A DNA stretch of 20,827 nt from a virus, in the IMG/VR virus record IMGVR_UViG_3300032053_000651, positions 1 to 20,827 of that record; one strand, given 5' to 3'. Position 1 is the stretch's first letter. Each line of letters opens with the position of its first letter. A model generated the notes under the pieces. That model saw nothing but the letters and a program-made list of their open reading frames with translations. It did not search any database and was not told the origin of the DNA. Shown piece by piece: positions 1,575 to 20,210 of this stretch. The translations under genes were made by a program, and so were the position numbers.

Positions 1575-2393
1575 TCAGGGGTTCAGGGTCGCCGCGAGAC
1601 GCCTCGCGGCTTCGGGTACCGGGTCGGCCGCGGGGGCGGCCGGCCGTCCTTCGGTCCCGCCCCCCGCGCCGCCCACGTCCGGGCCGAGCGTGTCAGGGGC
1701 GAGGGCCGCGAGGAGGTCGGAGACCTCCCCGGTTTTGGCGATCAGTTCCGCGATCTGCCTTTCGACGTTTTCGATTGCGGATTGCGGATTGCGGATTGCG
1801 GATTGAACGGCCTCGGCGAGCGGGGCCTTCAGGCGCGCCATGACGAGGTCCGCCAGGCGGGCCAGGGCCTCGTCGTCGAGGCCGCTCGCCAGGGCCTTCG
1901 CTATCCGCGCGAGGGCGTTGGGATTTGCGCCGACGGGTACGCACGAGACTTCGAGGAGTTCCTGCTTGGTATGATGGTAGATCTGCGTGCTTTTTCCGGA
2001 CCCGCTGGACGTCGTTTTCGATCCCCCCTCCAGGGGCGAGAAGCCGACGCTGAAGGCCCGCATGTGCCGGCCGCGGTAAAGATTTCGAAATTCCGTGCCG
2101 AGGGCCGTCGCGTTGGGTTCCCTCGCGGCGAAACCGATGAACTGTTGCAATTGTCCTTCCGCGTCGACGAAGGTTTTCGGAGCGCTGCCGACGACGGGAC
2201 TGTTACCCGTCGCCAGGCGGTGCTGGTGATATGCGAGGACGACGGGGTTCATCAGGTACGGATCAAGAATCCAGCCCTGCGGCTCTATGACCTCGTTTTC
2301 CCTGTCCAGGGTGTCGTCGCTCGTGACGGCCTGGATGTCCCAGGATTCTTCAGGGGCGGCCACGTTTTTGGTGAAAGAAAACAAACGCCGCAT
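1575..2393 (-). CDS. Prohead protease (HK97 / U35 type)
   Basis: This is the likely maturation protease that trims capsid delta domains inside the prohead. Family landmarks are an early D-R-E-N-E-V-I segment, the AYHQHR stretch carrying the candidate catalytic histidine, MRAFSVGF with the candidate catalytic serine, and the ELLEVSCVPVGANPNA segment that usually closes the domain. I chose the ATG at 2393, just past the portal stop codon, because the protein then begins MRRLFSF and GAGGTG lies upstream. A GTG at 2450 and an ATG at 2432 in the same frame would add 19 or 13 residues but have no clear ribosome site. After the protease domain comes an alanine- and proline-rich tail. A heptamer array sits inside the gene and encodes QSAIRNPQSAIE at the start of that tail, without breaking the frame. 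Confidence 0.88.
   Translation of the reverse strand: MRRLFSFTKNVAAPEESWDIQAVTSDDTLDRENEVIEPQGWILDPYLMNPVVLAYHQHRLATGNSPVVGSAPKTFVDAEGQLQQFIGFAAREPNATALGTEFRNLYRGRHMRAFSVGFSPLEGGSKTTSSGSGKSTQIYHHTKQELLEVSCVPVGANPNALARIAKALASGLDDEALARLADLVMARLKAPLAEAVQSAIRNPQSAIENVERQIAELIAKTGEVSDLLAALAPDTLGPDVGGAGGGTEGRPAAPAADPVPEAARRLAATLNP
1773..1805. repeat. Heptamer array (GATTGCG), 4.7 copies, inside protease gene
   Basis: Four perfect GATTGCG units plus GATTG lie in the coding sequence of the prohead protease. On the coding strand it reads as the heptapeptide SAIRNPQ repeat. It falls just after the catalytic domain, where an insertion is least likely to harm folding. Confidence 0.95.
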
Positions 2394-2403
2394 CGTATCC
2401 ACA

Positions 2404-4893
2404 TCACACCTCGGCTTTCTCTCCGTGTTCATGGGCAGGCGAGGCCGCACGCGCGTTTACGACATCCTTAAAGCCCACAAAACCGGCCGTTTCGCGGCCC
2501 TTAAGCATGGCCGCGACGTCGGCCCGTTCGCCCTCGGCGAAGCGTTTGTAAATGGCCAGGCACTGGCAGTTCACGATCTCTCCGGGCGGCCCGGATGGGT
2601 CGCGCGGGTACATGAGGCGGACCGGCCCTGCGTCCCCCTCGACCACGAACGGGTCGGAGATGGGGCACGGCTCGGCGGCGTAGACGGCCTCGGCCGCGAC
2701 GTGGCCGGGCCGCGGGGCGGCCTCGGGCGCGCGGGTGTGCAGCCAGAGTTTGTGCGTCATTCCGGTCGAAAGGACGCCCTCGTGGCGCGACTTGGAGAGG
2801 ACCTGGCCGACGACGTTCCGGGCCATCATCATCGAGGTCCCCCGGCGATGGCCGAACTGGGCGTCGAGGCGCGAGGCGAGGGCGGGGAAGGATTCCCCCG
2901 CATCCAGTCCTTCCTGGAGGCTGCGCTTCAGGGCCTCGCGCGTGGTGGCATCGATCTTCTTTGACAGGAGGATCGCCTCGCCCCTCAGGGCCGCGATCGG
3001 GCCGGGGTTGGCAAGGAGCCGCCTGAGGGCCTCCGCCAGGGCATCGCCCGCGAGGCCCGACTCGGCGAGGGCCTGGCGGAGGCCGAGTTCGCGGCCGTCC
3101 TTCAAGGCCGAGAAGATGCGCGCCCGGAACGCCGCCACCATCTTCGGGTCCTGGAAAATCTCGATGAGCAGGGCGTCAACCTGGACTGTTTTCTCGGCCG
3201 TTTTTTCGTTCTGCGTTCTGCATTCTGCATTCTGCATTTGCGCGTTGAGGGCCGCCCTTGCCCGGCGTTCCTGCTCGAAGTAATGGCTGCGGAGGACCTG
3301 GCGGACCTGCTGGGCGAGGGGCGCCCAGGATCTGGCCCACGCCCGCCAGATCCGGCCGCGTGCATCCCTCTGTTCGTTTTCAATCCGCGATCCGCAATCC
3401 GCAATCCGCAATCCCGCACCGGCCTGTCCGAGGCCGTCCGTCTCCTCGCCCGCCGGCGGGCCTTCGGGGACGGGCGAGAACCCGCCGCCCGCCGCCACGT
3501 CCGCCGCCGGCAGGAGACCGCTCGGGAGGTAGCCGATGTCGCCCCACGGCTGGTCGGGCATCCCGAGGTCCAGGAGGTCGTTGATCCGGTTGGGCGGGTA
3601 ACTGAGGTCGAAATACTTCTTGGCCGAGTCCAGGCGAGCGAGGCGCATCTCCTGGACGACCGGCAGGTCCTCCACGTCGAACCAGGCGAGGAGCCCCGAA
3701 TCGAACCGCGAGACCAGGTCCTGGACGGCCGGGGCGATGGAATCGAGCAGCGGAAACATCGTTTCCTGCCAGAACTGGCGGAGGGCGTTGGAGGTGTAGG
3801 CGGAGGAGTCGCCCGCCGCATCGACCCACCCGGCCACGACCGGGGGGACGCCGTAGAGGCAGCATATCTCCAGGCGGGTCGTCCGTTTCCCCTGGTCGAA
3901 CTGGAGGTCCGCCATCGTCGATCCGATGACCTGGACCTCTCCGTTCTCAAGGATGAGCGGCCGGCGGGCGTTCATCGGCCCCTGGTACCGCTCCGCCAGG
4001 ACCGCCCTCAGTTCATCCCGCTGTTCCGGCGTCAGCGTCCCCGGCTTGATGGCGATGCCGGGATCCGCCCCGTTGGCGAGCATGGCCGCATTGAAATACG
4101 AGGCGTTATAGTCCGTCGCCACGGCGAGGCGCCCCGGCGTCAAGGGACTCATGCCGCCGAGGGGATCCTTGCCGTCCGTCCAGAGGGCGAAGTAGCGGCA
4201 CTCGTCGAGCGCGAGGGGCAGCCGCGCCCCCGTCTCGGGGTGAGAGAACTCATAGCCAGCCAGGATGGGGATGCCTTCGGGCGTCCGCCGCCAGATCGGC
4301 GTCACGCGCCGGCCGTCGAAGACGTGGACCTCGCCCGGACGCCGGCCCTTCAAGTCCGTGTAGATCCACGCGACGCTCCCCGCCGTGAGGAGCCATCCGA
4401 TGTGGGCCGTCAGGAACGCCGGCCAGTCCTGGTACCCGTTCGGCCGGTCGAGGATCGCCCGCGCATCGCCCTCTTCGACGATCTCTCCGTCCGCCGCCCG
4501 GCCGGTGCAGACGGCCTTGCGCCCGGCGACCGGACGGAGCGTCCGCCGCCGCGAACGGCGGATGTCGGCCGCGAGGCTTTTGGCCCGGACGCGGGCCTCC
4601 GGCCCCTCTCGCATGAGGCGCAAGGGGACGCCCGAGCCGGATTCCTGGATCTTCCGGACGCAGCGGTAGACCCAGAGGACCTGCTGGTACGGCCGGAGCG
4701 GCTCGTGGAGGGCCGCGGCCGAGCCGCCGCCGACCCCGCGAAGCCACGCCTGGGCGGCGCCCGACAGGCCCAGGGTCGCTTCCTTGGCCGTCCCGCCGCC
4801 GCTCATCCGGTCGAGGGCGGCCAGGGCGCGGGCCGTCCGCGTTTCGGATCGCCGGCCCGCCTGGATGGTCGCATTTCGGGTCACGCCGTCCAC
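2404..4893 (-). CDS. Portal protein fused to MuF head-morphogenesis domain
   Basis: This 829-residue protein combines two usually separate head proteins. Residues ~60-470 match the HK97-type phage_portal family: YQQVLWVYRCVRKI near the start, RPNGYQDWPAFL, the NAAMLANGADPGIAI segment and SSAYTSNALRQFWQETMFP near the end of the domain. Residues ~660-780 match the MuF (SPP1 gp7-like) domain, with ARNVVGQVLSKSRHEG and the typical closing EIVNCQC. The linker carries two separate heptamer arrays, read as GLRIADCGSRIENE (~493-505) and NAQMQNAECRTQNEK (~550-563). The GTG at 4893 overlaps the terminase end. A GTG at 4884 forms a 4-nt GTGA overlap with the terminase stop and has AAGG about 10 nt upstream, so it is an equally good start. 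The portal forms the DNA entry ring, and MuF proteins are minor head components. Confidence 0.92.
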   Translation of the reverse strand: MDGVTRNATIQAGRRSETRTARALAALDRMSGGGTAKEATLGLSGAAQAWLRGVGGGSAAALHEPLRPYQQVLWVYRCVRKIQESGSGVPLRLMREGPEARVRAKSLAADIRRSRRRTLRPVAGRKAVCTGRAADGEIVEEGDARAILDRPNGYQDWPAFLTAHIGWLLTAGSVAWIYTDLKGRRPGEVHVFDGRRVTPIWRRTPEGIPILAGYEFSHPETGARLPLALDECRYFALWTDGKDPLGGMSPLTPGRLAVATDYNASYFNAAMLANGADPGIAIKPGTLTPEQRDELRAVLAERYQGPMNARRPLILENGEVQVIGSTMADLQFDQGKRTTRLEICCLYGVPPVVAGWVDAAGDSSAYTSNALRQFWQETMFPLLDSIAPAVQDLVSRFDSGLLAWFDVEDLPVVQEMRLARLDSAKKYFDLSYPPNRINDLLDLGMPDQPWGDIGYLPSGLLPAADVAAGGGFSPVPEGPPAGEETDGLGQAGAGLRIADCGSRIENEQRDARGRIWRAWARSWAPLAQQVRQVLRSHYFEQERRARAALNAQMQNAECRTQNEKTAEKTVQVDALLIEIFQDPKMVAAFRARIFSALKDGRELGLRQALAESGLAGDALAEALRRLLANPGPIAALRGEAILLSKKIDATTREALKRSLQEGLDAGESFPALASRLDAQFGHRRGTSMMMARNVVGQVLSKSRHEGVLSTGMTHKLWLHTRAPEAAPRPGHVAAEAVYAAEPCPISDPFVVEGDAGPVRLMYPRDPSGPPGEIVNCQCLAIYKRFAEGERADVAAMLKGRETAGFVGFKDVVNARAASPAHEHGEKAEV
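3207..3238. repeat. Heptamer array (CATTCTG), 4.6 copies, in portal-MuF linker
   Basis: The units are CGTTCTG twice, CATTCTG twice and a partial CATT. On the coding (minus) strand it encodes MQNAECRTQNE. The reverse-strand unit, GAATGCA, differs from the GATTGCG family at two positions. There is no stop codon in any frame of the CATTCTG unit. Confidence 0.93.
3381..3414. repeat. Heptamer array (CAATCCG), 4.9 copies, in portal-MuF linker
   Basis: CAATCCG units, one of them CGATCCG, lie inside the portal-MuF gene. On the coding strand the array reads GLRIADCGSRIE. It lies between the portal and MuF domains, about 140 bp from the second array in the same linker. Confidence 0.95.
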
Positions 4894-7665: not shown

Positions 7666-8104
7666 GGTCGGAATCTCCTCCAGTTAGCCGCCCATCCCTT
7701 CGGCTTCGCTCAGGGCAGGCTTGATGGGCGCGTGTGGTTGTGCCGTCGCCACATTGCGGATCGCGGATTGCGGATTGCGGATTGACAGTTAGCCGCCCAT
7801 CTTGATGGGCGCGTGTGGTTGTGCCGTTCGGATCGGCGGCGGGGAGTTCCATCGGGCCGAGGCCGGTGAAAAGCCAGGAAAGAGAGACGCCCCTTTCGAG
7901 GGCAAACGCGATCAGGCCGCCAAGGGCTTCCAGCGAAAGATAAATCGCGTTTCCGTTCTCCATCTTCCAGATCTGCTCGTCGCAGATCCCGCCAATGGCC
8001 GACACGAGTTCCTGCCGCGAAAGTTGGAAGCGGGCGCGCAAAAGGCGGATGCGTATCGCAAATTCGGCCGTAAAGGGGCTTTTTTTGGCGGCGTCCGAAG
8101 GCAT
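7658..8104 (-). CDS. XRE-family regulator with a repeat-encoded C-terminal tail
   Basis: Residues ~12-87 form a helix-turn-helix domain (FAIRIRLLRARFQLSRQELVSAIGG through GVSLSWLFTGLGPM). It is a clear relative of the N-terminal domain of the C repressor nearby (FASRLRQMRAALGLSQAEIS through GISLNWLLGGTGPM). There is no peptidase domain. From about residue 94 to the end (148) nearly everything is encoded by dispersed repeats: GTTTRAHQDGRL from one palindrome, VNPQSAIRDPQ from a heptamer array, then GTTTRAHQ...RRDGRL from a second palindrome with an insert. The ATG at 8104 has AGGA 7 nt upstream and a good promoter behind it. It heads the late operon, so it may regulate late genes or its own promoter. 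The gene may descend from a longer repressor whose 3' part was replaced. Confidence 0.75.
   Translation of the reverse strand: MPSDAAKKSPFTAEFAIRIRLLRARFQLSRQELVSAIGGICDEQIWKMENGNAIYLSLEALGGLIAFALERGVSLSWLFTGLGPMELPAADPNGTTTRAHQDGRLTVNPQSAIRDPQCGDGTTTRAHQACPERSRRDGRLTGGDSDRV
7683..7740. repeat. Palindromic element P1 with a 24-bp insert
   Basis: The element begins GTTAGCCGCCCATC and ends TTGATGGGCGCGTGTGGTTG. Compared with P2 it is identical except for 24 extra bases (7697-7720, beginning CCTTCGGCTTCGCTCAGGG), placed exactly between the two arms of the palindrome. It encodes part of the tail of the XRE regulator. Confidence 0.88.
7752..7784. repeat. Heptamer array (GATTGCG), 4.7 copies, between P1 and P2
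   Basis: The units are CATTGCG, GATCGCG, GATTGCG, GATTGCG and GATTG. The array is bracketed by palindromes P1 and P2, and all three lie in the coding sequence of the XRE regulator tail without a stop. Confidence 0.94.
7788..7822. repeat. Palindromic element P2
   Basis: GTTAGC followed by CGCCCATC-TT-GATGGGCG (8-bp arms) and CGTGTGGTTG. It shares the TGACA(G/C)TTAGCC left junction with P4 and the GTGTGGTTGTGCCGT right side with P1. It encodes residues ~94-105 of the XRE regulator. Confidence 0.92.
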
Positions 8105-8134
8105 CCCTTGGTCCTGGCTATTTGCCTGCCAAGA

Positions 8135-8163
8135 AAGGTATCTGACGCCGCTTACATCGTCAA
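8135..8163 (-). promoter_or_regulatory. Candidate promoter and operator for the XRE/late operon
   Basis: On the minus strand TTGACG (8163-8158), a 17-bp spacer and TACCTT (8140-8135) form a plausible sigma-70 promoter, with transcription starting about 24 nt before the XRE gene. An inverted repeat TGACG-N10-CGTCA (8143-8162) lies within it, and a similar TCTGACGC-CTT-CAT sequence is repeated about 50 bp upstream (8191-8204). These are possible sites for the XRE protein or the C repressor. The -10 box is only a partial match. Confidence 0.5.
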
Positions 8164-8236
8164 GACAAAACCGGCGGGATTAAGCAAAATTCTGACGCTT
8201 GCATTGTCGGCGATCCGTCGCTAGGGATCGGCAACG

Positions 8237-9016: not shown

Positions 9017-9019
9017 ATT

Positions 9020-9934: not shown

Positions 9935-9986
9935 GGGGCACCTCCATCGCGGCGAAACATTTTTTCCGGATTTTCTGATTTTTGCA

Positions 9987-10121: not shown

Positions 10122-10131
10122 GCTTTTCTTT

Positions 10132-11171: not shown

Positions 11172-11738
11172 GTGAGCGATCCAACAGTTGAATCCGCAAT
11201 CCGCGATCCGCAATCCGCAATGACGCCCGAGGACCTCGACGTGTTCATCCGCCTGGTGCACGAGGCCCTGAGCCACGCCCTGGGTGCTGCGCACCTCCGG
11301 CCCCCCCGGGCCGGCTCCGATCTCCACGTGGCCCTCTGGCACCTCGCCAAGGCGGAGCGCGATGCCCAGACGGAACTCTCTCAAAACGGGGAACGGGAAA
11401 CCGGGAACCGGGAACCGGACGACCCGTTGTCCAATCCGCAATCCGCAATCCGCAATCCGCAATTTGTTCGCCCCGCCTGCAACGTCATAGCCGAGATCCC
11501 GCCGGGCGGGCAGATCAGTTGCGGCCCCCTGCGTATCCGGCGGCCGGACATCGGGTCGGACGTGGTCATCGAACTGGGGGGCGAGATCCGGATCAACGCC
11601 ATCCTGGCGAGCGCGCACGTGCGGATCAGGACGGACGGCCGGTGGTACCCGGAAGTCCAGGCATCGGAGGCCGACCTGCCCCTGGCCCTCTTCGGCCAGG
11701 GCGACACCCAGCGCGAGATCCGCCCGGAGGACGTGTGA
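11172..11738 (+). CDS. Unknown two-part protein encoded just before the transposase
   Basis: I do not recognise this 188-residue protein. It has a helical part (PEDLDVFIRLVHEALSHALG through LHVALWHLAKAERDA, ~19-67) and a beta-rich part (PACNVIAEIPPGGQISCG through VRIRTDGRWYPEVQA, ~102-165). These are joined by a linker encoded by two heptamer arrays (GERETGNREPDD and NPQSAIRNPQ). A third array encodes ESAIRDPQSA right after the start. The GTG at 11172 has GGAGGT 5 nt upstream; an ATG at 11220 just after the first array lacks such a site. The stop overlaps the transposase ATG by one base, so the two are probably translationally coupled, and a role with transposition is possible. Confidence 0.78.
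   Translation: MSDPTVESAIRDPQSAMTPEDLDVFIRLVHEALSHALGAAHLRPPRAGSDLHVALWHLAKAERDAQTELSQNGERETGNREPDDPLSNPQSAIRNPQFVRPACNVIAEIPPGGQISCGPLRIRRPDIGSDVVIELGGEIRINAILASAHVRIRTDGRWYPEVQASEADLPLALFGQGDTQREIRPEDV
11191..11220. repeat. Heptamer array (AATCCGC), 4.3 copies, at a protein N-terminus
   Basis: AATCCGC, AATCCGC, GATCCGC, AATCCGC and AA, beginning 7 codons after the GTG start of the unknown gene and encoding SAIRDPQSA. Confidence 0.94.
11386..11417. repeat. Heptamer array (GGGAACC) in a protein linker
   Basis: Imperfect copies of GGGAACC, encoding NGERETGNREP. Only 14 bp separates it from a second array of the other family, and both lie in the linker of the unknown protein. Confidence 0.85.
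11432..11463. repeat. Heptamer array (CAATCCG), 4.6 copies, in the same linker
   Basis: Four perfect CAATCCG units plus CAAT, encoding SNPQSAIRNPQ in the linker of the unknown protein before the transposase. Confidence 0.95.
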
Positions 11739-13909
11739 TGGATTCCGCTGCCGTTTTTCAATCCGCAATCCGCAATCCGCAATCCGCAATTTCTGTGGCC
11801 GCCCCCGCCGGATACCTCTCGGTCGAACGGGCCGCCCGGCTCCTCGGCCGGTCCGAACGGACGGTCCAGGATTCCTGCGCGGCGGGGCGACTCAAGGCGG
11901 TCCAGGCGGGCGACCGGTGGTTCATCGACCCGGCCTCGCGGCCGGAATTCAAGATCGTCTCCGGCGGCGACCCCGAATCCTCCCGGGTGCCCCACGCCGC
12001 CGGAGACCTCCTTTGCGAACTCTCGGACCGGAAGCGCCGGGACCTCTTGGCCCGCCACGCCATGGTCGAGGCCTACATGGCCTCCGCCCGCGGCCGCGCC
12101 CGGGGCGATCTGGTGCGGTTTCAGGCCGACTGGATCGCCGCCTGGAACGCGATGCACCCCGCGACGGCCGTGTCCGCCCCGACCCTCCGGCGGCTGCTGC
12201 GGCTGTACCGGAGCGGCGGCCTCGCGGCCCTGGTGGATCGCCGCCGCAACCCCCGCGACTCGGGGTTGTCGCCGGAGGCCCTGGACTTCGCCGCGGGCCT
12301 CGCCCTTTCGGAATCGAAGCCGAAACTGGCGGGCATCTACAACCAGGTCCTGGCCCTCGCGCCGACGATGAACTGGACGCTCCCATCCCGCGGCCACTTC
12401 CTCCGCCGCCTCAAGCGCTACATCGACCCAAAGGTCTGGGCCCTGGGCCGCGATCCCCGGCTCTACCGCCAGCGGATGCAACTCGTGCTCCGCCGCGACT
12501 GGTCGAAGGTCGCCGCAATGGAACTCTGGGTCGCCGATCACCGGACGCTCGATGTGTGGGTGCCCCGCCAGGCGGATGACGGCCGGTGGTCCTGGCAGCG
12601 GCCGTGGCTTACGGTGCTGCTCGATGCCCGGTCCTGGAAGCCGGTCGGATGGACGCTGGCCTGGGATGCCCCCGACTCCAACCGCATCATGGGCACGTTC
12701 GCCCGCGCTGTCCGCGAGCACGGAAAGCCGGACTGGATGTACCTGGACAACGGAAAGGATTTCAGGGCCAAGCGGTTCGCCGGCGGGCGGGCGGGGGCGG
12801 GCGGACGCGCTGGGATGGTGGGCCTCATCGAGGGGGATGCCGTCGAGCCGATCCTTTCGGTCCTCGGCGTCCAGGTGGTCTGGGCCGATCCGTACAACGC
12901 CAGGGCGAAGGTCGTGGAAAACTGGTTCGGCCGGGCGATGGCGGAACTCTTCGACCGAAACTGGGAGACCTACTGCGGCCGGTCGACGGATGCCCGCCCC
13001 GAGGCCGTGACGAAGATGGATGCCGCCGAGGCGGCGCGGGGCGGCCTCTCGATCGATGCCGTCCGCCAGGCCTTCGCCGACTGGGTCCGCGACGATTACG
13101 GCCGATGCGAGTGCCCGGTCTCGGCCTCCCGAGGCCTCTCGGTCGAACAGGCGTTTCTCCGACTCCGCAAGGCCGGCTTCGAGGCGGTCATGCCCGCCGC
13201 GGAGACCCTGGCGATGCTCCTCCTGCCGACCAAGCCCCTCACGGTCAGGAGCACCGGCATCGCCCTTGCGGAGTTCGGATTGACCTATCTCGCCCCCGAA
13301 CTGGAGGACCTCCGCGGGGCGTCCGGGCGGGATGAATCGCGGAAGGTGGTCGTGCGCTACGACCCCGGCGACTCGTCGCGGATCTTCATCTTCGAGCGCT
13401 CGGGGCCGTTTCTCTGCGTCGCCCGGCCCTACCTCGAGCGCGGCGTTCACCCCCTCGCGCGGGCGGGCACGCCGGAGGACCGGGAGCAACTCGCCGACGC
13501 CCTGGGCGCGCAGAAACATGCGGAGAAGGGCGTCCGCGAACAGGTCCGCCGGTTGCGGGCGGTCGCCGCCCGGTACGCCCCGGCCCTCGCCCGCCAGTGG
13601 GCGGCCCACGCGGGCCTGGGCCTCCTGGATGAGACGGTCGCCCCGCCCGCCGAGATGCCCATCATCCGCCTGATGGGCGCGCCCGACCGGGCCGCCCAGG
13701 CGGGGCGGGAGGATGCCCTCGAGCGCCTCCGCCGGGTCCGCCAATCGCGGATCGCGGTCGGGGTGGAAGCCCTGTCTGAAACGAAAGAACGGGACGGCAC
13801 ACGAACCGCCCCGGAAAACGTCTTGGATGCGCTGCCGGATGAGCCGGCGGCCCAGGAAAAGGAGTCCACCTATGATCATGGAACGGGAGATTTTGACGAC
13901 CGCGCCTGA
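11738..13909 (+). CDS. A: Mu A-like DDE transposase
   Basis: This 723-residue protein is the strand-transfer enzyme that inserts and replicates the phage. After a repeat-encoded N-terminus (FQSAIRNPQSAI), residues 26-65 form an excisionase/MerR-type helix-turn-helix (YLSVERAARLLGRSERTVQ). A second helical DNA-binding region follows (SAPTLRRLLRLYRSGGLAAL). The RNase H-like core carries Asp267 in WVADHRTLDVW, Asp337 in WMYLDNGKDF and Glu394 in KVVENWFGRA. This spacing is close to the D269/D336/E392 triad recalled for Mu A. The beta-barrel region follows, with a helical basic C-terminus that would contact the B ATPase. ATG at 11738 overlaps the previous stop by one base and has GGAGG 7 nt upstream. 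The frame is open further upstream but lacks a comparable start. Confidence 0.96.
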   Translation: MDSAAVFQSAIRNPQSAISVAAPAGYLSVERAARLLGRSERTVQDSCAAGRLKAVQAGDRWFIDPASRPEFKIVSGGDPESSRVPHAAGDLLCELSDRKRRDLLARHAMVEAYMASARGRARGDLVRFQADWIAAWNAMHPATAVSAPTLRRLLRLYRSGGLAALVDRRRNPRDSGLSPEALDFAAGLALSESKPKLAGIYNQVLALAPTMNWTLPSRGHFLRRLKRYIDPKVWALGRDPRLYRQRMQLVLRRDWSKVAAMELWVADHRTLDVWVPRQADDGRWSWQRPWLTVLLDARSWKPVGWTLAWDAPDSNRIMGTFARAVREHGKPDWMYLDNGKDFRAKRFAGGRAGAGGRAGMVGLIEGDAVEPILSVLGVQVVWADPYNARAKVVENWFGRAMAELFDRNWETYCGRSTDARPEAVTKMDAAEAARGGLSIDAVRQAFADWVRDDYGRCECPVSASRGLSVEQAFLRLRKAGFEAVMPAAETLAMLLLPTKPLTVRSTGIALAEFGLTYLAPELEDLRGASGRDESRKVVVRYDPGDSSRIFIFERSGPFLCVARPYLERGVHPLARAGTPEDREQLADALGAQKHAEKGVREQVRRLRAVAARYAPALARQWAAHAGLGLLDETVAPPAEMPIIRLMGAPDRAAQAGREDALERLRRVRQSRIAVGVEALSETKERDGTRTAPENVLDALPDEPAAQEKESTYDHGTGDFDDRA
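11759..11790. repeat. Heptamer array (CAATCCG), 4.6 copies, at the transposase N-terminus
   Basis: Four perfect CAATCCG units plus CAAT, starting 7 codons after the transposase ATG and encoding QSAIRNPQSAI immediately before the first helix-turn-helix domain. Confidence 0.95.
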
Positions 13910-14999
13910 GGGCGCGGCAGCCGGAGGAGCACTGACGGTGGCTGAGCGCAAGGCGATCATCGAGCAACTCGAATCGCTCCAGTTGGCGGAGAACCTCTCG
14001 AACTCCGCGATCGCCCGGCTGCTGGACTGCTCGGCGGCGACCTGGAGCCTGATCCGGAAGGGCCGGTACTCGGGCAACGTCGATAAGTTTCTCCACCGGG
14101 CCGAGGTCGTTCTCAAGGCCCGGGCGGAGCGGAAGGACCTGCCGACCTCGGAGTTCGTCGAGACGTCGATCGGCCGGGGGATCCTCAAAATCTGCCGCCT
14201 GGCGGCGGACTTGGGCGACATGGCCCTCGTGCTGACGCCGTCCGGCTGCGGCAAGACCGCGGCCTTGCGCGAGTTCGCCAGGCGCCGCGGCGAGCAGGCG
14301 ATCTACATCCAGGCCGGGGAGTATGGGCGAACAAAACTGGCGCTCCTGAGGGAACTCGCCCGAAGCCTCGGGGCGGATGCGGCCGCCGAACGCGGGACGA
14401 TCGAATCGACGGCCGCCGCCGTCCGCGCGAAACTCGCCGCCGCCTACTCCGGCGGGATCGGCGCGGCGAAGATTCTCATCATCGACGAGGCCCAGACCCT
14501 GGAGGCCTCGGCCTTGAATCTCCTCCGAAACCTCCACGACGACCCCGACTGCCAGGCCGTGATCGTCCTGGGCGACACCTGGCGGTTGCACGCCGAACTC
14601 GGCCGGATCGGCGGAATCGCGGGCGGATACGAGCAACTCACGAGCCGGTTCGGGGCGGTCTTTGCCCTGTCCCTGACCGACCCGATCCCCGAGGCCGACG
14701 TCGCCCTTCTCGGGCGGGCCGTCATCGACGCCCTGGGCTGCCGGGGCGATCTGCCGGGCGACTCCATCAAGTGGCTCGCCCGCCAGGCCCAGACCAAGGG
14801 CAAACTCCGGAACGTAGTCAAGTTGCTCCGCGCCTGTTACCACGTTGCCGACTGCGCGGGCCGGCGGGCGGCGTTCACCGTCCACGAACTCGACTACGCC
14901 GCGGGCGTCCGCGGCGGCCTCTCGCAACTGGAGCACAAGGCCCCGCCCTGGGCGCGGGCCAAGGAAGACCAGCCCGCCCCGGCGGCCGTCGCCGGATGA
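13872..14999 (+). CDS. B: Mu B-like transposition AAA+ ATPase
   Basis: This 375-residue protein is the target-capture ATPase partner of the transposase. Residues ~40-65 hold a helix-turn-helix (NLSNSAIARLLDCSAATWSL). The AAA+ core has Walker A LTPSGCGKTAAL (K128, T129) and Walker B ILIIDEAQ (D205, E206), followed by a sensor-like VIVLGDTWRL. The C-terminal part is helical (KLRNVVKLLRACYHVA), as in Mu B and ExeA-like relatives. In Mu, B binds DNA as filaments, directs A to target sites and supports target immunity. ATG at 13872 has AAGGAG 7 nt upstream, and the gene overlaps the transposase end by 38 nt in another frame. Longer in-frame versions starting at 13713 lack a ribosome site. Confidence 0.95.
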   Translation: MIMEREILTTAPEGAAAGGALTVAERKAIIEQLESLQLAENLSNSAIARLLDCSAATWSLIRKGRYSGNVDKFLHRAEVVLKARAERKDLPTSEFVETSIGRGILKICRLAADLGDMALVLTPSGCGKTAALREFARRRGEQAIYIQAGEYGRTKLALLRELARSLGADAAAERGTIESTAAAVRAKLAAAYSGGIGAAKILIIDEAQTLEASALNLLRNLHDDPDCQAVIVLGDTWRLHAELGRIGGIAGGYEQLTSRFGAVFALSLTDPIPEADVALLGRAVIDALGCRGDLPGDSIKWLARQAQTKGKLRNVVKLLRACYHVADCAGRRAAFTVHELDYAAGVRGGLSQLEHKAPPWARAKEDQPAPAAVAG

Positions 15000-15001
15000 A
15001 T

Positions 15002-15036
15002 AGTTAGCCGCCCATCTCGATGGGCGCGTGTTGTTG
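15002..15036. repeat. Palindromic element P3
   Basis: AGTTAGC then CGCCCATC-TC-GATGGGCG and CGTGTTGTTG, filling most of the gap between the B and gam genes. The AAGGAGG of gam begins 2 nt after its end, so a hairpin would sit directly upstream of the ribosome site. Confidence 0.92.
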
Positions 15037-15049
15037 TAAGGAGGTTGCC

Positions 15050-15541: not shown

Positions 15542-15542
15542 C

Positions 15543-15800
15543 GTGGTCGGGGCGTTCGTACAAAAGGAGATCGAGAAACTGCGGCGCGAGGCCGGGCGGC
15601 CGAAGCACCGGTTCCTCATCTCCATCAGCCGCGTCGAGACGTGGGACCCGCAAGCGGCCCGGATGTCGGTCGGGCACGTCGCCCAGGTCATCGACGTGGA
15701 GACCCGCCTCGCGGTCCACGAGACGCCGCCGCAGCCGGACGAACAGGATGCCCGCGTCGCCGCCGGTCTCTGGATCGTGCGGCAGGAGGCCTCCGAGTGA
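15543..15800 (+). CDS. Small unknown early protein
   Basis: The 85-residue protein begins KEIEKLRREAGRP, a short charged helix. It continues with RFLISISRVETWDPQAARMSVGHVAQVIDVETRLAVHE, which has a beta-strand pattern, and an acidic end. I do not recognise the family. GTG at 15543 begins 1 nt after the gam stop, with a G-rich ribosome-like GGCGGGG 4 nt upstream, so it is probably translationally coupled to gam. A later ATG would leave only about 45 residues. Confidence 0.68.
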   Translation: MVGAFVQKEIEKLRREAGRPKHRFLISISRVETWDPQAARMSVGHVAQVIDVETRLAVHETPPQPDEQDARVAAGLWIVRQEASE

Positions 15801-15801
15801 T

Positions 15802-15820
15802 GAGTGCGGAGTGCGGAGTG
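15802..15820. repeat. Short heptamer array (GAGTGCG), 2.7 copies
   Basis: GAGTGCG twice plus GAGTG in the 52-bp gap between two small early genes. The unit differs from GATTGCG at one position. Confidence 0.85.
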
Positions 15821-15852
15821 AAAAAACCGGAAGCCGCTGAAGGAGGATCGCC

Positions 15853-16173
15853 ATGAGTGAAATGATTGTTTCGCAGGAATTGGCCTACCGGGCCGCGAGG
15901 AAGTTGTTCGAGTTCAGCGAGGCCCTCGCGGGCCGGACCTTGCCGGCGGAAGCGCGGGGCCGGGGACTGTGCGAGGCCGTCCGGCAACTTCAGATCCTGG
16001 CGGATTCGCTCATCCTCCGGGGGCAGCAGGCCGAGGCGGCGGCGGTCCGCCAAATCCTCGGCATCTCGCTGGAACGGCTCCGGGCGGCGCTGGACGAAGC
16101 GAACGAGGGACAACGGACGGCGACAGGCGGAGAGCGCGGAGCGGGGAGCGACAAGGAAAGGGAGGAGCCATGA
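15853..16173 (+). CDS. Small helical early protein (unknown)
   Basis: This 106-residue protein is mostly alpha-helical: ELAYRAARKLFEFSEALAG, CEAVRQLQILADSLILRGQQAEAAAVRQILGISLERLRAALDEA, then a low-complexity polar tail. I do not recognise the family. The ATG has AAGGAGG 6 nt upstream, and the stop overlaps the next start as ATGA. It lies in the region between gam and gemA that is variable among Mu-like phages. Confidence 0.76.
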   Translation: MSEMIVSQELAYRAARKLFEFSEALAGRTLPAEARGRGLCEAVRQLQILADSLILRGQQAEAAAVRQILGISLERLRAALDEANEGQRTATGGERGAGSDKEREEP

Positions 16174-16292
16174 GCCGGATCGAAATGTTCGTAGAAATCG
16201 TCGTTACGGCCCTGGCGGTGATCGGCGCGGTCGCCGTTCTCGCCGCCGCGGCGTTCGCCATCGGGTTCATCGCCCGTTGGGTGCTGCCGTAG
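16170..16292 (+). CDS. Tiny single-pass membrane protein
   Basis: The 40-residue product is almost entirely one membrane helix (VEIVVTALAVIGAVAVLAAAAFAIGFIARWVLP). It starts with ATG overlapping the previous stop by ATGA, with GGGAGGAG close upstream. Tiny proteins of this kind in Mu-like early regions could be Kil-like or lysis-related, but nothing in the sequence proves it. Confidence 0.64.
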   Translation: MSRIEMFVEIVVTALAVIGAVAVLAAAAFAIGFIARWVLP

Positions 16293-16305
16293 ATCGAGCC
16301 AAGCC

Positions 16306-16767
16306 ATGAACACGGCCGTCAATCCGCAATCCGCAATCCGCAATCCGCAATCCGGCGACCGCCGGACCCTGCGGTCGCCCGAGGAAAAGGCCGCGGACCT
16401 CCGGACGGCCGCCGAGGTCTTCGTCGCATACCTCCGGATGTACTGCGTCGGCCGCGACCAGGCCAGGCCGAAGTGGCGGGTCCTGGCGGAGATCCGGCGG
16501 GCGGGCGCCAAGGTCACAAGCCGCGAGTACGACGACCTGCCGCGCCTCGCCCTCGACCTGGGCGACGACGTCGGCACGTGGCGGAAGGGGGCGTTCTTCA
16601 TCGTGGACCGCGAGGACTTCGATGCGGCTGCCGGCAACCTGGTCGTCAGGTTCGAACTGATGCGGCGGCATCACGACATCCTTCTCGCGCGGCGCCGGAA
16701 GCGGTTCCCGGAAGAGCCGCTCTTCGATAGCGCGGAGTGCGGAATGACACTTAGCCGCCCATCTTGA
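16306..16767 (+). CDS. Unknown early protein with repeat-encoded ends
   Basis: This 153-residue protein has a repeat-encoded N-terminus (NPQSAIRNPQS) followed by a folded region: EEKAADLRTAAEVFVAYLRMY, RPKWRVLAEIRRAGAKVTSREYDDLPRLALDLG and GTWRKGAFFIVDREDFDAAAG. The central part could be a winged-helix domain, but I do not recognise the family. The last residues (SAECGMTLSRPS) are encoded by a heptamer array and by palindrome P4, whose loop supplies the TGA stop. The ATG at 16306 has no strong Shine-Dalgarno (CAAG nearby). Confidence 0.74.
   Translation: MNTAVNPQSAIRNPQSGDRRTLRSPEEKAADLRTAAEVFVAYLRMYCVGRDQARPKWRVLAEIRRAGAKVTSREYDDLPRLALDLGDDVGTWRKGAFFIVDREDFDAAAGNLVVRFELMRRHHDILLARRRKRFPEEPLFDSAECGMTLSRPS
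16320..16354. repeat. Heptamer array (CAATCCG), 5 perfect copies, at a protein N-terminus
   Basis: Five exact CAATCCG units, the longest perfect run in the window, starting 14 bases after the ATG of the unknown gene and encoding NPQSAIRNPQS. Confidence 0.96.
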
Positions 16768-16818
16768 TGGGCGCGTGTTGTTCCAAGTGCGGAGTGCGGA
16801 GTGCGGAATGCGGAGTGA
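16732..16818. repeat. GAGTGCG array interrupted by palindromic element P4
   Basis: GAGTGCG and GAATGAC lie to the left (to about 16747). The palindrome P4 (16751-16782, CGCCCATC-TT-GATGGGCG) follows. To the right are AGTGCG, GAGTGCG, GAGTGCG, GAATGCG and GAGTG (16787-16818). The palindrome therefore sits within or next to the array. The left side ends one gene, the loop gives its stop codon, and the right side provides GGAG and ATG for the lysozyme gene. Confidence 0.88.
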
Positions 16819-17590
16819 GAAGGCCCAAAACCCGCGACTGTATGAATTTCTCCTGGCGGAGGCCCGCGCGGCGCGGCGGCGCAGACGGCGGCGGGCGCTC
16901 GCGGACAACGGGTTCTGGATCGCACTGGCGATCTTCTGCGCCTGCGTCGCCGGGCTGCTCGTCGCCGGGTTCATCGCCGGCTGCCATGACCCGTGCCGGA
17001 CGCAGAGCGACGAGCAATACCGATACCACGAACGCGAAACGCGGAACCCGGAACTCGGAACGGACCCGGCGGGACGCCACCTTCCGGCCATCGGGCAAAA
17101 GGACTGTGGGCCGACCGCGAGCCGCCGACCGACTCGGGCGGCGGAGGACGCCGCCATCCTCCCGGCGCAACCTCCCGTCCAAAATGCCGTAATCGTTCCG
17201 AGTTCCGGGTTCCGGGTTTCGCGCTTGTTGGACGCGATCCGCCAGGTCGAATCGAGCGGCCGGCCTGACCCGCCGGACCGCGACGGCGGCCGGAGCATCG
17301 GCCCGTACCAGATCCAACGCGATTACTGGACCGACGCCGGGGTTCCCTGGCCCTACCAGGCCGTGCGGAGCGAGCGCGAGGGGCGGGCGACGGTCCTCGC
17401 CTACTGGCGCCGGCGGGCGCCGGAGGCCCTGGCCGCGGGCGACCTCCAGGTTCTCGCTCGCATCCACAACGGCGGCCCCAAGTGGGCGGCCAAGCCGACC
17501 ACACTCGACTACTGGCGGCGCGTGCTGACCGTTCTTCCGTCCGTCCGATTCAACGCGGAGAACGCAGAGAAGGCGGAGACAAAGGGATGA
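16808..17590 (+). CDS. Membrane- or lipid-anchored i-type lysozyme (endolysin)
   Basis: The C-terminal domain (~138-245) has the destabilase/invertebrate-type lysozyme pattern: AIRQVESSGRP with candidate Glu148, DRDGGRSIGPYQIQRDYW with candidate Asp159, LARIHNGGP and TTLDYWRRV. It should cleave the glycan strands of peptidoglycan. The N-terminus is arginine-rich (RAARRRRRRR), followed by a hydrophobic stretch (NGFWIALAIFCACVAGLLVAGF) and IAGC, which could be a lipobox, so export as an anchored protein is likely. Between anchor and enzyme lies a polar linker holding two copies of a repeat in opposite orientation. The tail FNAENAEKAETKG is encoded by another repeat. I chose ATG at 16808 because GGAG lies 6 nt upstream, both within the heptamer array. 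A GTG at 16775 would add 11 residues. Its place in the early operon is unusual. Confidence 0.82.
   Translation: MRSEKAQNPRLYEFLLAEARAARRRRRRRALADNGFWIALAIFCACVAGLLVAGFIAGCHDPCRTQSDEQYRYHERETRNPELGTDPAGRHLPAIGQKDCGPTASRRPTRAAEDAAILPAQPPVQNAVIVPSSGFRVSRLLDAIRQVESSGRPDPPDRDGGRSIGPYQIQRDYWTDAGVPWPYQAVRSEREGRATVLAYWRRRAPEALAAGDLQVLARIHNGGPKWAAKPTTLDYWRRVLTVLPSVRFNAENAEKAETKG
17033..17223. repeat. Inverted pair of 29-bp repeats inside the lysozyme gene
   Basis: The left arm is 17033-17061 (CGCGAAACGCGGAACCCGG...) and the right arm is 17195-17223. The reverse complement of the right arm matches the left at 28 of 29 bases. Each arm is made of GGAAC[CT]C heptamers. They encode RETRNPELGT and VPSSGFRVSR in the linker. 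The RNA could fold into a long hairpin across 133 nt. Confidence 0.93.
17549..17579. repeat. Nonamer repeat (AACGCGGAG) at lysozyme 3' end
   Basis: A 31-bp segment of three degenerate 9-bp units encodes FNAENAEKAE just before the lysozyme stop. It matches 29 of 31 bases with the copy at 19823-19853, which ends the GemA-like gene. Confidence 0.9.
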
Positions 17591-18414
17591 TCCGCGGAAA
17601 CCGCCATCACCTGGAGGCCGACGCCGAGAGGATCGTCGCGGGGATCCTGGCCGGCCGCCGCACGCTCGCTGGAACCGCCAGGAGATACCGCGTCACCTAC
17701 GACACCTTCCAAAAGTTCTGGAAGGCGCACACCACGCCCGAACAACGGCAGGAGGTCCTGCGGCGCTTCGCCGCGCGGCGGCGCGAATACAACAAAAAGG
17801 GGCGGTTCCGAAAGGGGCGCCGCCCTTGGAACAGGGATATGAAGGGCTTGCACATCTCCCCCGCCACGGAATTCAAGCCAGGCACATTGAACGGCCGCGC
17901 CCTCGCCCTACTGGCGAAGGTCGGCGAGATCCGCATCCGCCGCGACAGGCCCTCGGGACCCAGGAGCCTTCGCCGGCGCCGGCGGTTCATCAAGGTCCGG
18001 AGCGATGGGTCCCCCAAGTCCCGGTGGGTGCCCCTGGCCCGGCACCTCTGGCAGGAGGCCCACGGCCCGATCCCGCGGGGGATGCTGGTCATCTACAAAA
18101 ACGGCCGCACCCTCGACGACCGGCTTGACAATTACCGTCTCGTCAACCGCGCCGACCACCTGGCCCTCGAGGAGATCCTCATCCCCGGGATGCGCGAGCG
18201 GTGCACCGAAAACGGGCGGACGGCCCTGGCCGTGTTTCACCTGGAACGGCGGACCATCCGCGCCGCCCTTTTGCCGTCCGCAAAAAGGCGCATCCGCATG
18301 TGCGTCGCCTGCGGCTGGTCGCCCAAGCGGTTCGCCAAGGTCAGACGGTGCCTGAAGTGCGGCTGCACCGTCTTTGAGAAGGTCCTCGTCAACATGGAGG
18401 CAATCACATCATGA
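17587..18414 (+). CDS. HNH-like DNA-binding protein with zinc ribbon, catalytic site degenerate
   Basis: This 275-residue protein has an N-terminal HTH-like region (LAGTARRYRVTYDTFQKFW), the basic FRKGRRPWNRDMKG segment common in phage HNH proteins, and then an HNH-like block at ~151-193: HLWQEAHGPIPRGMLVIYKNGRTLDDRLDNYRLVNRADH. In active homing-type enzymes the centre reads V-x-H-x-D/N-G; here the histidine is replaced (VIYKNG), while the N-G and D-N-x-x-L-V parts remain. The C-terminal CVACGW...CLKCGC is a four-cysteine zinc ribbon. It overlaps the lysozyme stop by ATGA. It may be a nickase, an inactive DNA binder or a regulator; cleavage activity is doubtful. Confidence 0.74.
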   Translation: MIRGNRHHLEADAERIVAGILAGRRTLAGTARRYRVTYDTFQKFWKAHTTPEQRQEVLRRFAARRREYNKKGRFRKGRRPWNRDMKGLHISPATEFKPGTLNGRALALLAKVGEIRIRRDRPSGPRSLRRRRRFIKVRSDGSPKSRWVPLARHLWQEAHGPIPRGMLVIYKNGRTLDDRLDNYRLVNRADHLALEEILIPGMRERCTENGRTALAVFHLERRTIRAALLPSAKRRIRMCVACGWSPKRFAKVRRCLKCGCTVFEKVLVNMEAITS

Positions 18415-18608
18415 CCAAACGCAGAACGCTCTGCCCCGTTTGCGGCGGCACAAAGACGGTCAGCCAATTGTGCTGCGTCGGCTGCTGGCGGGCCGTGCCG
18501 CTGAACATCCGCCTCCGGTTCAACGTCGCCAAGGGGCCGGAGCGCCGGCAAATCGTCCGGGCACTCCATGCCGCCTGGAAAACTGGAGGCCGACATGCGG
18601 TGCCATAA
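18411..18608 (+). CDS. Small zinc-ribbon protein
   Basis: The 65-residue protein has CPVCGG...CCVGCWR, two CxxC pairs 10 residues apart that should bind zinc, followed by a basic helix (RLRFNVAKGPERRQIVRALHAAW). Its ATG overlaps the HNH gene stop (ATGA). I do not recognise the family. A regulatory or replication-accessory role would fit its size and position, as does any small nucleic-acid binder. Confidence 0.72.
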   Translation: MTKRRTLCPVCGGTKTVSQLCCVGCWRAVPLNIRLRFNVAKGPERRQIVRALHAAWKTGGRHAVP

Positions 18609-18650
18609 ACGCGACGAAGGTACGAGCGGCTGCATCGCCAGGCCGGGCAC

Positions 18651-19100
18651 ATGGGAAAGTGCACGATCCGCCCGAACCCGGACGATCCGCGGCCGGAGAC
18701 CTGGCCGTGCGCGGCGGAAGGGTGCGGCCGGCGCGTGAAGACGGACGGCGCCCGCTGCCCGGTCCATCGCGGCATGATGAACCGCGGCGTCCGCCGCGGG
18801 GCGGGCCGGACGCCGGATGAACCCTGGCCGCGACGGCCGATGCGCCCCGCCGCCCCGACCGACGCCGCGACGCCGGACGAAGTGGTGGACCCCCGGAACC
18901 TGGAGGACGCCGTCGCCCGCGGCGCCTACGCCTCGGCCGCCCGCGAGGACGGGCGGGTCCGCGACGGCCGGGACCTGGTGAAGCGCCGCATCGAGGCCCT
19001 CACGGTCTACGACGTGATCGCCAGCAAGGCCGCCCGCAAGGTCCTCGTCGGCCTCGGGCGGGCGCTCCTGGCGATGTTCGACAAGCCGGAGGCCCGATGA
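18651..19100 (+). CDS. Unknown protein with CxxxxC...CxxH zinc-finger-like N-terminus
   Basis: The 149-residue protein begins with ETWPCAAEGCGRRVKTDGARCPVHRG, a likely four-ligand zinc site. It continues with a proline-rich linker and a helical end (DLVKRRIEALTVYDVIASKAARKVLVGLGRALLAMF). The frame is the same as the preceding gene's but separated by its TAA. ATG at 18651 has only a weak ribosome site. An ATG at 18595 in another frame has good GGAGG but gives a 47-residue ORF ending inside this gene. The last bases overlap the next start (ATGA). Confidence 0.64.
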   Translation: MGKCTIRPNPDDPRPETWPCAAEGCGRRVKTDGARCPVHRGMMNRGVRRGAGRTPDEPWPRRPMRPAAPTDAATPDEVVDPRNLEDAVARGAYASAAREDGRVRDGRDLVKRRIEALTVYDVIASKAARKVLVGLGRALLAMFDKPEAR

Positions 19101-19354
19101 CCGACGCCGACAGAAAACAGTGGATCATCGACCACGGCGGCGGCCCGTGCCCCCCCCCGTGGCCGCTGGAATGCCAGGTCTTCGTGGAAAAATCCGGCAT
19201 CGAGTGGCTGCTCTGCTCGGACGGCCTGTGGACGCGGGTAGACTGCGTTGAAAAACTGATCCCGTCCAAGGGCGGGTGCGCGACGTGCGGCGTGCCGCTC
19301 CACCGCGAGTGGCCGCACCGGAAATGCCGCCGGTGCCGAAGGATTTTCCATTAG
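19097..19354 (+). CDS. Small zinc-ribbon protein (unknown)
   Basis: The 85-residue protein ends with GCATCGVPL...KCRRCRRIFH, two CxxC pairs forming a zinc ribbon. It is preceded by a Trp- and Cys-containing region (FVEKSGIEWLLCSDGLWTRVDCVEKL). It starts with ATG overlapping the previous stop by ATGA. It is one of three consecutive small Cys-rich genes, suggesting a cassette of nucleic-acid-binding early proteins. The family is not recognised. Confidence 0.74.
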   Translation: MTDADRKQWIIDHGGGPCPPPWPLECQVFVEKSGIEWLLCSDGLWTRVDCVEKLIPSKGGCATCGVPLHREWPHRKCRRCRRIFH

Positions 19355-19363
19355 AGGCGTTTT

Positions 19364-19894
19364 ATGCACCTCTCAAAAGGCCAAAAATACGCCGTGCACG
19401 CGGCCGCCAGGGCGGCCCAGTACGATGATGCCCGGTACCGCCAGGTCCTCAGGCGCCTGGCCGGCGTCCGGTCCTCGACCGACCCGCGCCTCACGCGCGA
19501 AAACTTTATCCGCGTGATGGCGTTCTTCGAGGGCGAGTGCGCGGGCCGGCTGCCGGGCTTTTCGCCCGGCTATTGGTTCGGCCAGGATTTAAGGACCGAC
19601 CCCGGCGACTCCCTCAGGTTCGCCTGCCGCCGCGAGGCGGCGGCCCTCGGCTGGACGGATGAGGACCTGGACCGCTTCCTGGCCTCGGACCGCTGTTCCA
19701 GCGGCCGCTTCGCACGCCTGGCCGACGCATCCAACTACTGGCTCTCGCGTCTCCTCGATGCCCTGAAGGCCATCCGGGGCCGCGCATCCGCACGCCCGGG
19801 GGCGGGCGTGCCACGAACGGCCTTCAACGCGGAGGACGCAGAGAACGCGGAGAATATTGAGGGGGAAACGGAAGATGCGGAAGTGCCGTTTTGA
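19364..19894 (+). CDS. gemA: GemA-like protein (Mu gp16 / DUF1018 type)
   Basis: This 176-residue protein has the Mu gp16/GemA pattern: LSKGQKYAVHAAARAAQYDDARYRQVLRRLAGVRSSTD at the start, TRENFIRVMAFFEGE after it, and SNYWLSRLLDALKAIRG near the end. In Mu, GemA affects host gene expression and DNA supercoiling; the molecular role is incompletely known. ATG at 19364 has GAGG 6 nt upstream. The C-terminus from ~151 (FNAEDAENAENIEGE) is encoded by the nonamer repeat, and the TGA stop touches a GGAACCT heptamer array. It is the expected downstream early gene in a Mu-like order. Confidence 0.8.
   Translation: MHLSKGQKYAVHAAARAAQYDDARYRQVLRRLAGVRSSTDPRLTRENFIRVMAFFEGECAGRLPGFSPGYWFGQDLRTDPGDSLRFACRREAAALGWTDEDLDRFLASDRCSSGRFARLADASNYWLSRLLDALKAIRGRASARPGAGVPRTAFNAEDAENAENIEGETEDAEVPF
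19823..19853. repeat. Nonamer repeat (AACGCGGAG) at gemA 3' end
   Basis: A 31-bp copy matches the lysozyme 3'-end copy at 29 of 31 bases and encodes FNAEDAENAE near the C-terminus. Confidence 0.9.
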
Positions 19895-19925
19895 ACTTGG
19901 AACCTGGAACCTGGAACCTGGAATC
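19893..19925. repeat. Heptamer array (GGAACCT), 4-5 copies, at gemA stop codon
   Basis: GAACTT then GGAACCT three times and GGAATC, starting within the TGA of the GemA-like gene and filling half of the gap to the next gene. It has the same core GGAACC as the GGGAACC array. Confidence 0.93.
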
Positions 19926-19958
19926 TGAAACTTTGACCGCCCTTCGCCGGGGGAGAAC

Positions 19959-20210
19959 ATGACCGACCCGCAGCCGCAGCCGCCGCCGCCGCCCAATCCG
20001 CACTCCTCAATCCGCAATCCGCAATGGCTCGACGTCCGGGACCTCTCGCCCGGCGGCATCCTCGCCCGCCGCCTGCTCGTCTACCAGGACCGCCTCGCCC
20101 GCGTCCACGCCCGCGGGGGCGCCTACGCGAAGGTCGGGTTCTCCGGTTACGTCCGGGACCTCCTGGCCCGGTTGGAGGCTGGCAAGGATCTGTCCCATGC
20201 AGTACATTGA
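19959..20210 (+). CDS. Small unknown protein with repeat-encoded N-terminus
   Basis: The 83-residue protein begins TDPQPQPPPPPNPHSSIRNPQW, a proline-rich and heptamer-encoded leader. It then has a helical region (LARRLLVYQDRLARVHARGGAYAKVGFSGYVRDLLARLEAG) of unknown family. ATG at 19959 has GGGGGAG close upstream. It overlaps the next gene by 14 nt. The folded part alone is only about 55 residues. Confidence 0.7.
   Translation: MTDPQPQPPPPPNPHSSIRNPQWLDVRDLSPGGILARRLLVYQDRLARVHARGGAYAKVGFSGYVRDLLARLEAGKDLSHAVH
19994..20025. repeat. Heptamer array (CAATCCG), 4.6 copies, at a protein N-terminus
   Basis: CAATCCG, CACTCCT, CAATCCG, CAATCCG and CAAT, encoding NPHSSIRNPQ near the start of a small early protein. 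Confidence 0.92.

Follow-up and report, generated by a model that had tools for sequence, protein, structure and literature searches.

The window analyzed here, i.e., the whole 20,827-nt stretch of virus record IMGVR_UViG_3300032053_000651, is a 20.8-kb fragment of a Mu-like phage encoding a MuA-type transposase (phrog_310), a portal protein, an S78-type protease, and repressors. TRF and a period-7 scan recovered 15 period-7 arrays, 13 of them within open reading frames (ORFs), so that the heptamer arrays reported in a preliminary description of this DNA are real. The ORF-borne arrays reside in the genes for the protease, the portal (two), an XRE-type regulator, MuA, and a lysozyme-like protein (three), and in the genes at 11172 (three), 16306, and 19959. 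Their units fall into six classes, namely CAATCCG (eight times), CATTCTG, AGTGCGG, GGGAACC, AACGCGG/GGAACCC, and GGAACCT, to which two nonamer arrays are added. At the score used for period 7, periods of 4, 5, 8, 10, 11, and 13 yielded no array in the window. With up to one mismatch, (CAATCCG)3 matches the window at 15 overlapping places and the reversed pattern at none. Features are listed below, with reference to the closest relative, L136 (capsid 96% and portal 91% at the amino acid level).

1773-1805, minus strand: ATTG(CGGATTG)4, 32 bp plus one base, prohead protease codons ~216-227; common to L136
3207-3238, minus strand: CATTCTG/CGTTCTG array, 32 bp, portal linker; unit differs in L136
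3381-3414, plus strand: CAATCCG array, portal linker; common to L136
7753-7784, minus strand: ATTGCGG array, exactly 32 bp, C-terminal tail of the XRE-type regulator
11191-11221, plus strand: CAATCCG array, N terminus of the 11172 gene
11385-11418, plus strand: GGGAACC array, G-rich, with "left-arm" polarity, in the 11172 gene
11432-11463, plus strand: (CAATCCG)4CAAT, 32 bp, with "right-arm" polarity, in the 11172 gene
11759-11790, plus strand: CAATCCG array, 32 bp, N terminus of the MuA-type transposase
15795-15820, plus strand: GAGTGCG array, intergenic
16320-16354, plus strand: (CAATCCG)5, N terminus of the 16306 gene
16786-16817, plus strand: AGTG(CGGAGTG)4-type array, 32 bp, N terminus of the lysozyme-like gene
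17028-17228, no strand assigned: two-armed hairpin unit GGAACCC/GGGTTCC in the lysozyme-like gene
17552-17579, plus strand: nonamer array AACGCGGAG in the lysozyme-like gene
19826-19854, plus strand: nonamer array AACGCGGAG, C terminus of gemA
19893-19931, plus strand: GGAACCT array directly past gemA
19994-20025, plus strand: CAATCCG array, 32 bp, N terminus of the 19959 gene

As the preliminary description had it, the arrays lie close to starts, in linkers, or in tails of ORFs; only those at 15795 and 19893 are intergenic. Two of its assignments hold in part. The lysozyme-like gene does carry the array ascribed to it, but it has three such heptamer arrays in all, plus a nonamer array. The heptamers placed in gemA are downstream of its stop codon, where the 19893 array begins, and the C terminus of gemA instead holds the nonamer array at 19826-19854; a 94% identical copy of the nonamer array at 17552-17579 is found there, at about 19823-19853. 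The hairpin of the lysozyme-like gene has arms at 17028-17062 and 17194-17228, which are 91% complementary, separated by 131 bp, and scored as period-7 arrays at 17031-17062 and 17195-17226. In the 11172 gene, the 11432-11463 array sits 13 bp past that at 11385-11418, and the units of the two differ.

Most window arrays measure 31 to 35 bp, and this size is a standard one. Among 366 arrays from 120 genomic loci retrieved with (CAATCCG)4 and from the viral loci, lengths peak at 31, 32, and 33 bp (33, 55, and 46 arrays, respectively). Arrays whose units are independent of the query behave likewise, with 57 of 171 at 31 to 33 bp, 16 at 28 to 30 bp, and 10 at 34 to 36 bp. A 32-bp array consists of four periods plus four bases, i.e., five 4-bp cores spaced 7 bp, as in ATTG(CGGATTG)4, AATG(CAGAATG)4, AGTG(CGGAGTG)4, or CAGA(AGTCAGA)4. 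The standard size of ~32 bp, absent from the preliminary description, is more telling than the lack of stop codons that it emphasized. It bears directly on polymerase slippage, i.e., expansion of heptamers in place, with 7 nt matching the polymerase footprint. Over-representation of heptamers in bacteria has been noted since 2007, and slippage via the polymerase footprint was the main guess at its cause, as far as that work is cited and quoted in PMC4692102. The preference for period 7 in all loci, a minority of long arrays (up to 300 bp) that must have expanded, and the variable copy number of GACAGAT among Coxiella strains (PMC4990558) fit this explanation. However, slippage predicts graded copy numbers and no preferred length, and the peak at 31 to 33 bp, rather than a fall-off, is therefore evidence against it, as are inverted pairs of a single polarity, near-identical plasmids that differ by the presence or absence of whole units, and the recurrence of one unit across more than 15 phyla. 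We thus consider slippage unlikely as the general origin of the arrays.

This breadth is apparent from the 28-mer (CAATCCG)4 alone, which occurs in at least 120 stretches of GTDB genomes and in 14 of 2.9 million viral contigs. CAATCCG arrays are present in more than 15 phyla, the (CAATCCG)4 carriers including Planctomycetota, Acidobacteria, Verrucomicrobia, Gemmatimonadetes, Bacteroidetes, Chloroflexi, Latescibacteria, Nitrospinota, Nitrospirota, Desulfobacterales, Bipolaricaulota, Coatesbacteria, Schekmanbacteria, Armatimonadetes, Elusimicrobia, and Proteobacteria, among others. In Planctomycetota, (CAATCCG)3 was detected in 9 of 149 genomes and the reversed pattern in none of the 149.

All 15 consensus units of the window lack stop triplets in the six frames, in agreement with the units inspected previously. 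Nonetheless, such heptamers are common anyway, as was also anticipated: of the 1172 heptamer classes, roughly half contain no stop. With CAATCCG arrays excluded because the query had selected for them, units are stop-free in 71% of the arrays within open frames (52% expected) but in only 46% of those outside (49% expected from GC content). The missing excess outside open frames means that stop-freeness reflects survivorship in genes rather than design; stop-free units are those that selection in genes leaves behind. Hence, the proposal of an element that enters genes without killing them retains its behavioral part, borne out by the block-wise units on plasmids and by a unit swap in a phage linker, and loses stop-freeness as a designed property.

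Arrays frequently pair. Neighbors at most 120 bp apart are arranged as G-rich then C-rich (left-right) in 47 cases versus 5 in the reverse order, and this preference vanishes at distances of 200 to 3000 bp (17 left-right, 26 right-left). The resulting two-armed units have the terminal inverted repeats of miniature inverted-repeat elements (MITEs), a single polarity, and gaps mostly of 13 to 110 bp; locus L052 contains a series of hairpins with arms of ~33 bp and loops of 36 to 37 or 77 to 79 bp. Apart from the pair in the lysozyme-like hairpin, the window arrays (13) all lack an inverted partner at distances up to 130 bp, which counts against explaining them as arms of mobile units.

The history of one hairpin can be followed in uvrA. 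Twelve Gemmatimonadota relatives were compared at one internal site of this gene. Ten have an in-frame hairpin there with mutually matching arms, its unit being ATTGCGG, AGTGCGG, or GGAACGC according to species; of the other two, L252 has lost its right arm, and L242 carries a different palindrome. Changes affecting both sides add up to 19 cells versus 7.8 in shuffles, above all 500 shuffles, although the use of related sequences, two of them (L020 and L241) identical, means that these counts do not represent independent events. Comparison of these sequences indicates that units are replaced in place while the uvrA arms stay complementary. An initial clustering that put uvrA beside the arrays in 10 of 120 loci was an artefact, since repeat peptides had joined unrelated ORFs; it disappeared upon masking, and true uvrA occurs only in L020 and L059.

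Arms that remain complementary in uvrA, together with positions that persist between relatives, would be expected if the arrays were recognition or regulatory sites under selection, whether for a DNA- or RNA-binding protein, as G-quadruplexes, or as RNA hairpins. Against this, units change freely, many different ones coexist in a single 8-kb stretch (L044), and the arrays occur within unrelated genes. Furthermore, mismatches between the arms around genes of the PF05635 family comprise 131 G.U and 135 A.C combinations. This absence of a G.U bias would speak against an RNA-level role; it indicates no selected RNA stem and complementarity kept at the DNA level, so that selection for RNA hairpins is unsupported. 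A role of the arrays as recognition or regulatory sites, in place of one as mobile-element ends, is thus distinctly unlikely.

Comparison with related phages provides a similar picture of persisting sites and changing units. L136 shares two of three comparable window arrays (1773 and 3381), which specify nearly identical peptides, whereas the portal site at 3207 holds CATTCTG in the window and a GGTTCCC-type array in L136. More distantly, L150 (TerL 62%) bears an inverted pair of nonamer arrays in the same portal linker and shows a heptamer array in a decayed state at the protease site, and L151 (TerL 55%) has no array at either the portal 3207 or the protease site, with linkers of similar lengths. 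The search for MuA relatives in the viral collection gave no match. The view of the arrays as parts of an element that enters genes is therefore sustained by the swap in the portal linker, but not all of them are fresh insertions, two of three being common to L136 and the protease site being still marked by a decayed array in the distant L150. Because sites persist and units turn over, the arrays are not fixed protein sequence. The notion that they are ordinary protein sequence, the repeats simply encoding low-complexity linkers and tails in phage proteins, can appeal to the two arrays with nearly equal peptides in L136, yet it is very improbable given the different unit at the third site, the empty portal linker of L151, the reading of CAATCCG in both orientations (NPQSAIR and RIADCGL), and the intergenic arrays at 15795 and 19893.

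When repeat peptides were masked, no single gene family stood out around CAATCCG arrays in the 120 loci. A link to PF05635, a four-helix protein family, was found instead from the flanks of the first three such genes met in array loci, all three flanked by inverted short tandem arrays. PF05635 is represented in 19 of 20 array-bearing genomes versus none of 14 control genomes, and in 10 of 12 genomes of a second array-bearing set that has one genome in common with the first. In unselected genomes, the inverted-arm score of PF05635 loci exceeds that of shifted controls both in Planctomycetota (29 loci versus 112 controls; p=9e-15) and in Bacteroidota (30 loci; p=3e-14). The arms at these loci are mostly of period 7, with some of 8 or 9. 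Arrays of the CAGTNNN type occur in 32 of 149 Planctomycetota, with PF05635 in 27 of these 32 versus 50 of the other 117 (p=2e-5, a value that ignores phylogeny), and all nine Planctomycetota genomes with (CAATCCG)3 have PF05635. Mobilization of the arrays as REP-like sequences by RAYT (Y1) transposases follows the same logic of a gene with flanking inverted repeats plus many dispersed hairpin copies (REP/BIME), and a GTAGGGGCG palindrome does occupy the uvrA hairpin site in one relative, but it is very improbable because sequence class and protein family are different, the arrays do not flank a Y1_Tnp gene, and the RAYT (PF01797) loci that served as controls in the same Planctomycetota genomes bear other, classic REP GC palindromes lacking period 7.

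The association has exceptions. In none of the loci read does the CAATCCG unit itself flank a PF05635 gene, which counts against a mobile-arm explanation. Bordetella pseudohinzii, Stagnimonas aquatica, one Verrucomicrobiaceae MAG, and five Planctomycetota carry arrays but no PF05635; a TIGR02436 search of the array genomes without PF05635 found no match, and likewise none in any control genome. A single query against 50,697 phage genomes retrieved no PF05635 relative, and the IVP profile has no match in the window. As separate observations, contig L037 of a B. pseudohinzii isolate without PF05635 contains both (CAATCCG)4 and (CCGCAAC)n, and G061, one of those five Planctomycetota, has 338 CAGTNNN array matches with neither a PF05635 nor a RAYT match.

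Gain or loss of whole units is evident on Nostocales plasmids, in which five sites are either filled or empty between homologous flanks that are ~85 to 99% identical. Four sites (A to D) hold PF05635 elements, and the fifth (E) holds a gene-less hairpin.

Site A: AGTCAGG/AGTCAGA arms plus gene; filled in L329, L344, and L345; empty in L328 and L340-L343
Site B: GGGAAAA arms plus gene; filled in L328; empty in L329, L340, and L341
Site C: GGGTGTA arms plus gene; filled in L332 and L333; empty in L337-L339
Site D, between nrdB and nrdA: GGGAGTA arms plus gene; filled in L331; empty in L346
Site E: gene-less hairpin with CAGGAGT arms; filled in L341, L343, and L344; empty in L328, L329, and L342

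Site E thus alternates between filled and empty states in the manner of a MITE. The TCAGGAG unit is common to its hairpins and to the site A element, which may link the gene-less and gene-carrying forms. In L340 and L345, a second hairpin is nested within the loop at site E. The nested copies speak for gain, although any one site taken by itself may reflect either gain or loss. Junctions of sites A to C adjoin stop and start codons, and the insertion-site duplications that the preliminary description suggested looking for did not appear consistently at the five sites. To our knowledge, PF05635 is not a known transposase. The site B element (L328 1406-1960) is less regular than the others, with GGGAAAA/TTTTCCC arms and a tail of ~37 bp before the next ATG. 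On the same plasmids, copies of the small gene WP_104899637 at L328 1139-1430 and L329 1857-2148 share 99.7% identity within flanks that are 89 to 91% identical, as if the gene had recently been exchanged between plasmids.

Among the closest known systems are the intervening sequences (IVS) of 23S rRNA, which have inverted complementary ends and encode the same PF05635 four-helix protein. IVS exist in short and gene-carrying forms. They are located in 23S rRNA and excised by RNase III, whereas the units described here lie in or between protein genes, on plasmids, and in a phage. All window arrays are in or between protein genes; inverted complementary ends occur at PF05635 loci and at 17028-17228 in the window but not at its other 13 arrays, and the S23/IVP gene is present at loci elsewhere, not in the window. 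Several 23S rRNA genes were checked for heptamer-armed IVS, and none of the genomes examined has a heptamer array inside 23S rRNA. The 23S rRNA of genome G003 (L290 1501-5154) is 3654 nt long, ~730 nt above model length, and lacks heptamer arrays. In Coxiella burnetii, the IVS combines terminal inverted repeats, an S23 ORF, and three tandem GACAGAT heptamers before this ORF; terminal arms made wholly of period-7 arrays are not described for it, and the origin and role of IVS, like the role of S23/IVP, are still open (PMC4990558). Beyond Coxiella, our literature search found no paper joining heptamers and S23, nor any on these repeat peptides or repeat sequences.

Heptamer repeats of Xanthomonas and Nostoc (GGGAATC and GGGGA(C/T)T), like cyanobacterial STRR, have been described as intergenic and quadruplex-prone with no link to mobile elements; the modal array has four units, convergent inverted pairs number 70 in Xcc, and 83% of arrays occupy the same place in Xac (PMC4692102). 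These are likewise heptamer arrays with inverted pairs, but no connection to the four-helix gene is drawn there, even though XCC0516 (2gsc) comes from the same species. The fold predicted for the L091 protein agrees with 2gsc and 2rld, both of which have five chains. It also matches Avd of diversity-generating retroelements (4dwl) and a DGR ribonucleoprotein (8ub7), but at the fold level only (11% identity). Rickettsia palindromic elements enter protein genes in frame as palindromes. The in-frame hairpins of uvrA and the lysozyme-like gene may be comparable; the Rickettsia elements are not known to consist of tandem heptamers.

We regard it as probable that most of the phage arrays represent individual arms of small, mobile hairpin elements from a PF05635-linked family. 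This reading is based on the uniform arm length, the inverted pairing and its polarity, the association with PF05635 in two phyla not selected for arrays, units that are present or absent as blocks, and unit turnover during which complementarity is retained. A full element, seen elsewhere and incomplete in the window, would begin with a left arm of ~32 bp, in which about five cores of 4 bp recur at 7-bp intervals and the top strand is G-rich. A loop would follow, either short (~15 to 130 bp) or holding a PF05635 four-helix gene of the 23S-IVP/Avd kind, and then a right arm made of the same kind of array inverted. Such elements would appear or disappear as whole blocks, both where genes meet and within protein linkers. 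After insertion, units may be replaced by other heptamers while the arms remain complementary, and loss of one arm, as probably exemplified by L252, would leave a single array. A pentameric four-helix protein may bind the five cores of an arm, with DNA transfer presumably performed by a host or mobile enzyme. The phage, presumably thriving in element-rich hosts, would carry 13 single arms and one two-armed unit, kept where the peptide is tolerated; we infer that its single arms are of this family from the same size, the same units, the one full hairpin, and the unit swap. The model is weakest with regard to these single arms, the lack of CAATCCG around PF05635 genes, and array genomes without PF05635 (G061, B. 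pseudohinzii, and Stagnimonas).

If so, heptamer over-representation and S23/IVP would be tied together, the inverted arms marking where the gained or lost blocks end and the four-helix gene often lying between these arms. Many unusual repeat peptides of predicted proteins, NPQSAIR and RIADCGL among them, would find an explanation, elements of this kind would reach phage structural genes, and widespread "junk repeats" look like parts of a little-noticed mobile element family. More tentatively, and short of an even chance in our estimation, this could be a large unnamed class of mobile elements spanning bacteria and phages, with five-core arms, a pentameric Avd-like protein, and no known transposase gene of its own, of which Xanthomonas and cyanobacterial heptamers, 23S rRNA IVS, and repeats in phage genes would all be forms.

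Other repeats also populate the window. A second dispersed repeat, AGTTAGCCGCCCATCTTGATGGGCGCGTGTTGTT, with the palindromic core CGCCCATCTTGATGGGCG, is located at 7720-7746, 7785-7827, 14999-15042, and 16746-16789, amounting to three to four copies at gene starts or ends that touch a heptamer array twice. The peptide CPERSRR at the C terminus of the XRE-type regulator (~7680-7725) adjoins a heptamer array; a REP-like repeat widespread among genomes encodes this peptide. Finally, a tandem decamer-like repeat, TTTTTCGCCC, extends over 20736-20783 in 4.8 copies.
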